A stretch of 35,642 nt of DNA, taken from positions 1-35,642 of the IMG/VR virus record IMGVR_UViG_3300032738_000331; one strand, written 5' to 3'. Position numbers and translations under genes: made by a program. The notes under the pieces were generated by a model, which saw only the letters and a list, made by a program, of their open reading frames with translations, did not search any database and was not told the origin of the DNA. Origin of the DNA: a virus. Shown in pieces: positions 27,581 through 33,337 of this stretch; the stretch's first letter is position 1, and each line of letters starts with the position of its first letter.

Positions 27581-27583
27581 ATA

Positions 27584-27624
27584 CTTTCCTCTTTGGCTTT
27601 AATTTGGCTTTTTGGCTTTTGGCC
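27584..27624 (-). promoter_or_regulatory. gp32 leader with four GCCAAA repeats: candidate autoregulatory operator
   Basis: On the minus strand the expected gp32 leader reads as four GCCAAA units (plus-strand TTTGGC at 27592, 27603, 27611 and 27618), spaced 7-11 bases apart and ending at the GAGGAAA ribosome site. The stretch is A-rich and poor in self-pairing. T4 gp32 represses its own translation by binding an unstructured leader with short repeats; the present repeats are a candidate equivalent. Confidence 0.5.
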
Positions 27625-27633
27625 TGAATAACA

Positions 27634-27662
27634 ACTTTATCACATATGTAAAGGGATGTCAA
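27634..27662 (-). promoter_or_regulatory. Sigma70-like promoter of gp32
   Basis: Minus strand TTGACA (27662-27657), a 17-base spacer, then TAAAGT (27639-27634). The spacer contains TTACA and TGTGA at the same places as in the gp33 promoter. It begins three bases after the stop of the upstream GIY-YIG gene. Confidence 0.65.
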
Positions 27663-27665
27663 GCC

Positions 27666-28310
27666 CTAGTTCTGTTGTATTTTTTTTAATGAATCACTTA
27701 TTTTTTTCCTAGTTTCTTCTGAGAGTGTTTTTCCTTTTCTAAATTCACTCATTTTCTTTCTAGTTTCTTCTGAATGTTTTTTACCATAAAATGGATTATT
27801 TTCACCACTTAAAGATTCACTTATTTTTCTCTTAGATTCTTCTGTGTGTTTTCTACTTTTTCCATAATTTGGATTATTTTTACCTTTAGTGGCTTCACTC
27901 ATTTTTTTTCTATGTTCTTCTGAATGTTTTTTACCATAAAAATGATGTTTTTCACCACTTTTAGATTCACTCATTCTCTTTTTAGTTTCTTCTGAGAAAA
28001 TTCTTTCTTTTAGTTTCTTTTTTGTTTCTTCTGAATGAATATACCCAGAACACCAATCACCACCATCAGTACGATTCTGTAGAATCCCAGTTCGCAAATC
28101 TTTTCTACCTAGAACTGAGATCATGTATATCTCATGTTTAAAGGCTTCTTCTTCAGTTAGATTTTGTTTTAGAAATAATATTCTATCTTTATCTTTAGGT
28201 GGTAATACTCTGTGACGATGAATACAATAAGCTCTACTACCTTTACCCTTACCAATATAATAAGGAGTTCCGTCTTCTCTTAAGTAAGCATAGGTATAAT
28301 AGTTATTCAT
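27666..28310 (-). CDS. GIY-YIG homing endonuclease with NUMOD3 repeats
   Basis: 214 residues. The GIY-YIG nuclease core is at 4-90: [34 protein letters not shown], a [15 protein letters not shown] helix and GGDW. Residues about 90-212 are DNA-binding repeats of the NUMOD3 type, [49 protein letters not shown], and so on. Free-standing endonucleases of this kind spread by cutting a nearby target in related phages. The ATG overlaps the gp59 stop (ATGA) and the gene ends just before the gp32 promoter. The nearby target may be gene 32 or 59; T4 SegG beside gene 32 is a parallel. Confidence 0.88.
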
Positions 28311-29247: not shown

Positions 29248-29905
29248 GTCGGAATTGATTCAATTGTTTCTTAAATTTTTTGATGTATTTCATATCAAAT
29301 TTTTCTATGAATACTTCAACTTCCATATCACGAGAAACCATCATAATAACAATTTGTTTAACTTTAACTCCCGTCAATTCATAGATCATGCAAGAATATA
29401 TTGCACATTGAATAAAATAAGATTCAATCCATTCCTTACGTTTAATTTGGTCACTGGTTTTAGTATCAATAATAGATAGCTCACCATCAAACTCAGCTAT
29501 AATATCTGGAGTTCCCGCAACACCTAATATTTTACTATAAAGCTGCTGCTCTATGCATCGTATATTATTTATACGATGCAATGTTGGCTTTAATTTATTA
29601 AAAAACATTTTCAATAATGGTCTAGAGAAATCAACTTCTTTATTCTGAAGATAATTCTCAACAATACTATGAAAAGCCGTACCATTGGTTGATGTTCTGT
29701 TCATTTTATTATCAGCAGCTCTATCCCCGACTCTATTTCTCCATTTTTGAATTGATTCCTTTTTAGCATGTGATAATACAGATGTCACAGAAACCATTGG
29801 TTTTGTTTTTGTGTCACCAACAATAATATAATGTCTAACTCCATTAATTTCTATTCTCTCTAATTTTGGGAACTCAATATCAAAACCCTTATAATCATAT
29901 TTCAT
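29225..29905 (-). CDS. RecB-like PD-(D/E)xK exonuclease
   Basis: 226 residues. After an N-terminal beta section (MKYDYKGFDIEFPKLERIEI, VSVTSVLSHAKKES) come the RecB/Cas4/MGME-type nuclease motifs: GTAFHSIVENYL (His), VAGTPDIIAEFDG (Asp), LSIIDTKTSDQIK (DxK) and FIQCAIYSCMIYE (Q-x3-Y). Such phage exonucleases take part in recombination or DNA degradation. The start overlaps the PhoH stop (ATGA), so they are co-translated. The coding region includes a perfect 11-bp inverted repeat and the -35 box of the gp33 promoter. Confidence 0.75.
   Translation of the reverse strand: MKYDYKGFDIEFPKLERIEINGVRHYIIVGDTKTKPMVSVTSVLSHAKKESIQKWRNRVGDRAADNKMNRTSTNGTAFHSIVENYLQNKEVDFSRPLLKMFFNKLKPTLHRINNIRCIEQQLYSKILGVAGTPDIIAEFDGELSIIDTKTSDQIKRKEWIESYFIQCAIYSCMIYELTGVKVKQIVIMMVSRDMEVEVFIEKFDMKYIKKFKKQLNQFRLDNQLQV
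29554..29580. repeat. Perfect 11-bp inverted repeat within the exonuclease gene
   Basis: TGCATCGTATA (29554-29564), a five-base TTATT spacer, then TATACGATGCA (29570-29580). It encodes His-Arg-Ile-Asn-Asn-Ile-Arg-Cys. There is no T tract, so it is not a typical terminator. Confidence 0.85.
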
Positions 29906-31890
29906 CTTATACCTAAATTATACTTAGCAATAATATATTGCTTCACAAAATCTGAGCGAACAATATCATCAATACCAAACTCAATCACATCAAATGAATT
30001 CATTTGATTAATAATTCTCATAAAATCAATAATTCCATTTTTCTCAGATAACTTGGTTAAGTCAGATTGTGCCGCATCACCACAAAAACATATCTTACAG
30101 TCTTCACCAACTCTTGTAATAATTGAATCATTCTCATGAAATGATAGATTCTCAAATTCATCAACAATGATAATTGCCCGATCAAAAGTAGTTCCCCTAA
30201 TAAATGAAGTACTCCAAAAACTAATAGTTCCTTGCAATTTTAAATTTGAATAAATTGTCTCGTATTGTTCAGCATTATCAAAATCAAACATACCCTTAAC
30301 CATATTTTTATATGGTATTTCATACAATGCCGATTTATCGTCATGAGAGTTGTGAGTAACTATGTAGTCATCAGTAATATAAAGATTTTCAGAATTATCA
30401 ACACTAATACATTTAACCTCCTTAACCCCGATTGGCTCAATAGACTTTATTCCAATATTGTGCATATATTTACATGAAAATCTTTCAGCCTTTCTAGAAA
30501 TAAAGAATGGATTAATATCATTTGGTAAACTTATTGTAAATTCATAAGATATTAATCTGCATGTTAATTTCTGTCGTTTTCCTTGTCTATCAGTAATATA
30601 TGAAATCATACCAACCCTATCCCTCTCACATAATACAGATCTACCACCAAGAGATTTAACTATTTCAATTACATCCATTGCCAATCTCTTTGATGTTGTG
30701 GTATATGAAGCCTCCCCAATCTTCTTTACTGTACCATCAGTATCCATTAACCCCCGTAATAATTCAATTCTATCATGAATTGATGAAAATTTATATAAAT
30801 CTGGGATAAATTTTGTATCACATTTTGATTTATTTAACCCAAGTTTAATCAACTCATTTTTTATTATATTTTCTGATAATATTTTTGTTGGAATAAATTC
30901 ATATTTTAAATTATCGACAACTTTATTATTTTCACAATAATATTTTAATGTTGATCTCTTTTTATTTAATGATTCTAAAGCAACACCAATTGAATGATAC
31001 TTTTCACTCTCGGAAGTATCAAGATTTGTAACTAAAACTCTTTTGGCTGGTTTATTATTTTTAGGCGAATTATTTATAGTGTAAGTAATATTACGATTAT
31101 TATTTGTTAAATAACACCCCATTGATGTAATTTCATCATCTACTCTCTCAATTAACTCATTATCAGTATTTGAGAATGAAATAGAAGATGATATACTACC
31201 GTCACCTAAAATTACACCAAGTGTATATGGTGGGATAGGTAAATTATTTTTTGTAAACTCAATCGCTGCATTTCTAGGAAGATAATGATTTATTTTACCA
31301 CTATTGTTTAATAAAGTTTCAATAATTTGTTTGGTTGTTTTTGTTGACCCAGGTTTACCTCTCTTTTTTTCTTCATACGTTCTCGTCACCCATAAATGAT
31401 CTTCACAACATTCAGTGGATGTATTTTCCGTAGTTGTAACTTTATATACTAATTTCTTTCCCTTTGGGAATACCTTTGTTACTTTCGTTTGTTTACCATC
31501 ACAACCAATAACATAATCGCCAACTTTAATTTCACCCATAGTAGACCAGCCAGTTGGAGTTAGTATTTTAGCATCTAATGGCTGTGGTCCTGGAAGGAAA
31601 CCAATCTCCCTAGTTGGAACTAAAGAACGCACAATATAGATTTTATCATAAGGTGTTCTATAATCAAGAACATCTCTTAAAGCATTATATAAAACACACA
31701 TCGTCTTACCAGTTCCCGCAACACCATGTGCAATTATGTGTTTTCCTTCTTTGTATGATTCAAATAATCTTCTTTGATTCACGGTAAGTGGTTCAATAAC
31801 TGATAACTTTGAAATATCTATTGGTTTTTTAGTCCTCCTACCATTAGAAAATTCATTAGTATTTGTATTTCTTGCTTTTCTTGCTGGCAT
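29902..31890 (-). CDS. phoH: PhoH-like ATPase interrupted by an intein
   Basis: The 662-residue precursor is a 249-residue PhoH (residues 1-101 and 515-662) with a 413-residue intein. PhoH motifs: NQRRLFESYKEGKHIIAHG, Walker A GVAGTGKT (56-63), and, after the intein, the Walker B strand AIIIVDEFENL and CFCGDAAQSDL. Joining FLPG to SHDDKSALYEIPYKNM restores the usual cyanophage PhoH sequence, and the spliced length is normal. PhoH is a P-loop ATPase of uncertain role, common in marine phages. The gene is coupled to the exonuclease (ATGA overlap) and lies 11 bases from a free-standing HNH endonuclease gene. Confidence 0.9.
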   Translation of the reverse strand: MPARKARNTNTNEFSNGRRTKKPIDISKLSVIEPLTVNQRRLFESYKEGKHIIAHGVAGTGKTMCVLYNALRDVLDYRTPYDKIYIVRSLVPTREIGFLPGPQPLDAKILTPTGWSTMGEIKVGDYVIGCDGKQTKVTKVFPKGKKLVYKVTTTENTSTECCEDHLWVTRTYEEKKRGKPGSTKTTKQIIETLLNNSGKINHYLPRNAAIEFTKNNLPIPPYTLGVILGDGSISSSISFSNTDNELIERVDDEITSMGCYLTNNNRNITYTINNSPKNNKPAKRVLVTNLDTSESEKYHSIGVALESLNKKRSTLKYYCENNKVVDNLKYEFIPTKILSENIIKNELIKLGLNKSKCDTKFIPDLYKFSSIHDRIELLRGLMDTDGTVKKIGEASYTTTSKRLAMDVIEIVKSLGGRSVLCERDRVGMISYITDRQGKRQKLTCRLISYEFTISLPNDINPFFISRKAERFSCKYMHNIGIKSIEPIGVKEVKCISVDNSENLYITDDYIVTHNSHDDKSALYEIPYKNMVKGMFDFDNAEQYETIYSNLKLQGTISFWSTSFIRGTTFDRAIIIVDEFENLSFHENDSIITRVGEDCKICFCGDAAQSDLTKLSEKNGIIDFMRIINQMNSFDVIEFGIDDIVRSDFVKQYIIAKYNLGIR
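30349..31587 (-). mobile_element. PhoH intein, class 3-type, with LAGLIDADG endonuclease
   Basis: The 413-residue intein begins PQPLDAKILTPTGW (Pro1, not Cys or Ser) and ends YIVTHN before Ser+1. Class 3 inteins lack an N-terminal nucleophile and show a separated W-C-T set: Trp two residues after the block B His, Cys in block F, Thr before the final His-Asn. All are present: H64/W66 (CEDHLW), C393 (VKCISVD), T411-H412-N413. The insert holds a two-motif LAGLIDADG endonuclease: TLGVILGDGSISS and LLRGLMDTDGTVKK. Confidence 0.83.
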
Positions 31891-32554: not shown

Positions 32555-33337
32555 CTATTTAACAAGTTTCCAACCTCTATATGTTTTCCTCTTCTCATTA
32601 ATTAACCTACTAACACCATTTGGTAATAAGTTATTATTATTTGCAAATAAAGATAACTCACCAATAATAACATAATAATATTCCCCATTAGGAGATAATA
32701 AACAATATTTATTACCAGAACCTGGACTATTCCAATCACTTACCGGCTTTAAATTTTTAATTTTACTGGGATTTGTTAAAGTCCACCCCTTATGTTTATA
32801 TTGTTTATATGATCTAAGTGAATATAAACAATATAAACTTAAATTATTATCTATTGAAAATTGTTTAATATTTGTACCAGAATAGATAATACCATCTGGG
32901 GAGGTGAAGGAATATTGGCTCACATGTAGTGGTGGCTTTATCCAAAGATTTTTATTCCGTTTAGACAGTCGTAATTTTGCCTCATTGCTCATTCCAGGCC
33001 CAAGTATCCTACCCCTAAGAGATTTACTAATCTTAATTTTACTTTCTTTTGTATGTCCTGTAAATATTGGAGGTGAATCACCACCATCAGTAAGGTTTCT
33101 AAGTATTCCAGTTCCTAAATCTTTTCTACCTAAAACATCAATCATGTATTTCTCATGTTTAAATGCTTCCTCTTCAGTTAGGTTTTGCTTTAGGAATAGT
33201 ATTCTATTTTTATCTTTAGGAACCGGAAGACGACGATTTGAATTGAATGCTCTATCATTAGACCCCTTACCGATATAATAAGGAGTTCTGTCTTCCCGCA
33301 AATACGCATAAGTATAAAATCTGTTAGGATTTACCAT
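32555..33337 (-). CDS. GIY-YIG homing endonuclease with different C-terminal DNA-binding repeats
   Basis: 260 residues. Residues 6-90 ([60 protein letters not shown]) closely match the first 90 residues of the GIY-YIG enzyme between gp59 and gp32. The rest differs: a short NUMOD3-like helix (HTKESKIKISKSLRGR) and two copies of a 48-residue module of the type YSFTSPDGIIYSGT...NNLS...YKHKGWTL and YCLLSPNGEYYYVI...NNLL...YRGWKLVK. The target is probably in thyX next door or its intein-free relatives. The ribosome site is AAGAGCAG. Confidence 0.85.
   Translation of the reverse strand: MVNPNRFYTYAYLREDRTPYYIGKGSNDRAFNSNRRLPVPKDKNRILFLKQNLTEEEAFKHEKYMIDVLGRKDLGTGILRNLTDGGDSPPIFTGHTKESKIKISKSLRGRILGPGMSNEAKLRLSKRNKNLWIKPPLHVSQYSFTSPDGIIYSGTNIKQFSIDNNLSLYCLYSLRSYKQYKHKGWTLTNPSKIKNLKPVSDWNSPGSGNKYCLLSPNGEYYYVIIGELSLFANNNNLLPNGVSRLINEKRKTYRGWKLVK

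Follow-up and report, generated by a model that had tools for sequence, protein, structure and literature searches.

A candidate translational operator in a gp32 leader: a lineage-specific GCCAAA version of a repeat array widespread before gp32 genes

The gp32 gene in IMG/VR virus record IMGVR_UViG_3300032738_000331 is preceded by a leader made up largely of four GCCAAA units and a Shine-Dalgarno stretch, GAGGAAA. This leader was compared with those of other gp32 genes, and the repeat-array architecture was found to be widespread before gp32, with the GCCAAA version being lineage-specific. Judged from sequence, the array is a candidate translational operator and on balance probably acts as one, with gp32 coating single-stranded repeat sites that extend over the ribosome site of its mRNA. 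Throughout, the window denotes the entire stretch of DNA analyzed, positions 1 to 35,642 of the record (35,642 nucleotides).

The minus strand upstream of the gp32 start reads CAGGCCAAAAGCCAAAAAGCCAAATTAAAGCCAAAGAGGAAAGTAT-ATG, and the features of the region are listed in Table 1. A sequence-only reading had described this leader as about 47 bases long and almost wholly composed of four GCCAAA units plus GAGGAAA. Its length agrees with the transcription start predicted at -46 relative to gp32, and the units are present as described, although at 31 of 46 nt "almost wholly" was a slight overstatement. The array directly precedes gp32 and adjoins its ribosome site. Using a repeat score computed on the 50-nt leader, we obtained a value of 23, which is beyond all 4000 mononucleotide shuffles (mean, 2.3; maximum, 18), and dinucleotide shuffles (n=200) gave p=0.005, the lowest value attainable. 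Only 25 of 14238 50-mers sampled from the window scored as high, a count that includes overlapping samples of the array itself; the array is extreme, though simply as repetitive DNA it need not be unique. The gp32 leader ranked first in repetitiveness among the 31 window gene leaders scored. GCCAAA occurs 18 times in the whole window, compared to 16.4 expected by chance, and the cluster before gp32 is therefore local. The units are spaced at 7, 8, and 11 nt, which is less regular than across the gp32 family. The leader RNA is weakly structured, with no more structure than its shuffles, and an Rfam scan of the window returned no match.

Table 1. Coordinates of features around gp32 in the window
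Feature	Position	Strand	Basis
gp32, T4-type single-stranded-DNA-binding protein, 320 aa	26618..27580	-	PF08804, phrog_224, phmmer
Predicted 5' untranslated leader, 46 nt	27581..27626	-	start site inferred from promoter spacing
Shine-Dalgarno stretch GAGGAAA, adjoining repeat unit 4	27585..27591	-	sequence
Repeat unit 4, GCCAAA	27592..27597	-	sequence
Repeat unit 3, GCCAAA	27603..27608	-	sequence
Repeat unit 2, GCCAAA	27611..27616	-	sequence
Repeat unit 1, GCCAAA	27618..27623	-	sequence
Sigma-70-like promoter TTGACA-17-TAAAGT, TG before -10	27634..27662	-	consensus scan
GGGCTTGACATCCCTTT, promoter 17-mer common to cyanophage-type gp32 genes	27650..27666	-	
Homing-endonuclease-like ORF with NUMOD3 repeats	27666..28310	-	PF07460, phrog_314
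Gene 59	28900-28307	-	

We gathered 303 gp32 genes, each with at least 60 nt of upstream sequence, and reduced them to 76 representatives with less than 75% mutual protein identity; the representatives share ancestry, and their start sites are predicted. The controls were 256 intergenic leaders from the same loci, with genes defined by simple ORF calls. Leaders repetitive at p<=0.05 accounted for 27 of the 76 gp32 representatives versus 20 of the 256 controls, and an exact 5-mer repeat at a lag of 9 to 11 nt was present in 47/76 versus 44/256. Across the representatives, the repeats showed a sharp period of 9 to 11 nt with harmonics near 20 and 30, a large effect that was first noticed and then tested in one data set and that was not seen in shuffles or control leaders. 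They were concentrated between about -45 and -5 before the start codon, and the signal persisted when the cyanophage, other marine, and zinc-type groups were taken separately and survived clustering at 50, 60, and 65%. An obvious array is not universal, and the leaders of Shigella phage AG3 and Rhizobium phage Y68 were not significantly repetitive. The sequence-only reading had proposed that a lack of repeats in relatives would refute it; what we found was an enrichment of arrays reaching the ribosome site in gp32 leaders, far above the leaders of other genes, with a unit that is lineage-specific.

The units named here for relatives are our own reading of their leaders. The unit is AATCC in cyanophages, ATACANCG in other marine contigs, of the AACTGT or TTAAAT type in T4-like phages, ATACAATA in Vibrio phage V05, and AAAGCACA in a Stenotrophomonas phage. 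Units within one leader were more alike than units of other leaders at equal offsets. At least one GCCAAA was present in 53 of the 303 gp32 leaders but in only 1 of the 256 controls, and cyanophage leaders commonly include this unit; the four-copy array was seen in the window lineage only, which has therefore probably amplified a pre-existing unit. Contigs L476/L544 and L493 have homing-gene and promoter DNA in common with the AATCC-array contigs L223, L535, and L483, and despite this shared promoter DNA their arrays are AATAC. Their gp32 proteins are only ~57 to 61% identical to the AATCC-type gp32 of that clade and 83 to 92% identical among themselves, which indicates that the array type follows gp32 and not the promoter. 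This co-inheritance of unit type and gp32 is supportive rather than proof, since plain linkage could also yield it. As a separate observation, L028, L035, L076, and their relatives carry a complementary pair, ACGAG/CTCGT or ACGA/TCGT, at about -67 to -28 before gp32 and 5' of their ATACAACG array, and L076 has a weak pseudoknot-like scan match overlapping its predicted -10.

The window gp32 belongs to the T4-type SSB family, matching PF08804 (E=1.9e-33), phrog_224 (E=2e-83), and, by phmmer, solved T4 gp32 chains (8gme and 1gpc among others). When the ligand columns were compared, it retained only the His of the four T4 zinc ligands (His64, Cys77, Cys87, and Cys90). The full set of zinc cysteines was present in 13 of the 76 representatives, and this site is thus not defining for the gp32 family. 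One IMG/VR locus, L002, is 98% identical to the window protein over its 156 gp32 residues and has an identical leader; it represents the same lineage and provides no independent support. All other gp32 proteins except those of L001/L002 are ~41 to 47% identical to that of the window, and no relative was found in bacterial and archaeal genome contigs. In the gp32 tree, the window protein forms a long branch without firm placement, yet its promoter 17-mer is identical to the cyanophage type, making recombination between promoter and array possible.

The minus strand carries, in order, gene 59, a NUMOD3 homing-endonuclease-like ORF, an 85-nt gap containing the promoter, the array, and GAGGAAA, gp32, and then a convergent gp53. 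A homing gene also lies between genes 59 and 32 in T4, where it is segG (PMC2988022). The N-terminal half of the NUMOD3 ORF resembles a second stretch of the window at about 32960-33325 (+), or positions 2318-2683 counted on the minus strand, with 62% identity over 123 aa, and a PhoH-like gene at 29902-31890 (-) contains an intein-like insertion that matches LAGLIDADG and Hint. The 17-mer GGGCTTGACATCCCTTT followed by ATAAAG was found in 87 stretches in IMG/VR, and a gp32-like ORF lay 69 to 88 nt downstream in 78 of the 80 places fetched (L472-L551); this combination is a recurrent gp32 promoter. The gene upstream of it varies, being one of several homing-endonuclease-like ORFs or a short ORF, and the spot resembles a homing hotspot. 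We rejected GGGCTTGACATCCC as a mobile promoter spread by homing endonucleases, since gp32-like ORFs followed in 78/80 places whatever the upstream gene. A loose GCCAAA-pair pattern searched in IMG/VR was also discarded as too unspecific.

T4 gp32 represses its own mRNA via an unstructured repeat leader (PMC535899, PMC3014915). The window shares with the T4/RB69 gene 32 operator a homologous SSB and an unstructured leader of several short repeats extending into its own gene's ribosome site. The two differ in the unit, which is GCCAAA rather than UUAAA/UAAA, as the sequence-only reading had maintained, and in the pseudoknot 5' of the repeats, which is present in T4/RB69 and was not found in the window leader by a scan that recovers the known knot of T4-like phage RB27. 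They differ also in the zinc ligands, of which the window gp32 lacks three of the four in T4, where the zinc domain is essential for gene 32 repression according to a title cited in PMC535899. The RB49-type leader likewise has no pseudoknot in the literature (PMC535899, PMC3014915), and the same scan found none in that of JSE, an RB49 relative; unlike the window, the RB49 type retains the zinc ligands and has an A/U-rich leader without GCCAAA, and the two papers disagree on whether UUAA repeats are retained in it. Also similar in layout are cyanophages in our data set (Kyanoviridae such as P-SSM2, S-PRM1, and S-SRM01), which have the same succession of promoter, short unstructured array, ribosome site, and a zinc-less gp32, with S-SRM01 also having the promoter 17-mer. 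Their unit is mostly AATCC at about 10 nt, and GCCAAA is usually present in at most one or two copies, compared to four in the window. No published description of cyanophage gp32-leader arrays was found in the open-licence literature searched.

The window leader is therefore not simply a T4 operator, and of the earlier proposal of a T4-type autogenous operator the candidate operator stands, backed by the repeats in relatives and the passage of unit type with gp32, while "T4-type" was too strong given the absent pseudoknot and zinc domain. In the mechanism that we propose, a host-type promoter would start transcription directly upstream of the array, so that nearly the whole leader would consist of short sites repeated in a row, largely without structure and ending in the Shine-Dalgarno stretch. 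While single-stranded DNA is plentiful, gp32 would be titrated away and its mRNA translated; surplus free gp32 would then bind the repeated sites cooperatively and cover the ribosome site. T4 gp32 occludes 7 nt (PMC10484735), and units 7 to 11 nt apart would thus suit about one protomer each. Evolution would keep repetition and spacing, and the sequence of the unit would drift with the gp32 of its lineage. The operator is favored because the array exceeds chance, is enriched at gp32, periodic, confined to -45 to -5, and weakly structured, because T4 offers a precedent, and because unit type follows gp32 in recombinants. The missing pseudoknot and zinc ligands, the irregular spacing in the window, and the approximately one third of leaders without a repeat at lag 9 to 11 argue against it. 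With no pseudoknot and the zinc ligands mostly absent, either regulation differs here or the array has another role.

Among such roles, the leader could be an unstructured A/C-rich translation enhancer (a ribosome standby or S1 site) of an early protein produced in large amounts, without regulation by gp32. The gp32 leaders are indeed A-rich and weakly folded relative to the controls, and a good Shine-Dalgarno lies downstream of the array, but an open leader could do without units repeated at even intervals, other genes of these phages seldom have such repeats in front of them, and the unit type tracks gp32 subtype, which makes this explanation unlikely. Somewhat less likely again is that the array binds a different regulator of translation or RNA stability, such as a host factor, a small RNA, or another RNA-binding protein of the phage (for example, a RegA-like repressor). 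Any multimeric RNA binder could use repeats placed across a ribosome site, and the zinc domain on which T4 repression reportedly depends is absent. A shared regulator, however, would be expected at several genes, and gp32 is the only gene with a conspicuous array within a genome. Ranked by repetitiveness against all gene leaders of P-SSM2, S-PRM1, and a 235-kb marine contig, the gp32 leader was top or near-top, and the few that outscored it resembled coding or low-complexity sequence by eye; ATACANCG pairs elsewhere in their own genomes were scattered inexact matches barely exceeding the control pattern. The variation of the unit with gp32 subtype speaks against this regulator as well. We consider a DNA-level element (transcription-factor sites, a replication origin, or phased DNA bending) improbable; the period near 10 approximates the DNA helical repeat and the array adjoins the promoter, but it lies mostly downstream of the predicted start, confined to -45 to -5, and phased A-tracts were rejected because the period persists when only C/G-containing repeats are counted. 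Functionless repeats from replication slippage are the least credible origin, for although four GCCAAA copies resemble an expansion of a unit that many cyanophage leaders have in single copy, repeats of equal period and position recur across the gp32 family and are rare before other genes.

Returning to the operator, we tentatively suggest a broader reading, in which gp32 proteins without the zinc site, in cyanophages and other T4-like phages, may each read a lineage-specific RNA code of units spaced by ~10 nt, with approximately one unit per protomer and no nucleating pseudoknot, the array and the protein co-evolving with concerted change among the units of one leader. If this were true, an SSB that nominally ignores sequence would recognize RNA in a lineage-specific way. 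Whether gp32 mRNA is still bound and repressed in T4-like phages that lack the pseudoknot was a question left unanswered by work on T4 and RB69 published in 2004 (PMC535899), and the arrays make binding and repression in such phages testable in many lineages. Confirmation would show how a general SSB selects its own message, that autogenous control can outlast the loss of both the pseudoknot and the zinc site, and that an operator can retain its rhythm while its letters turn over.
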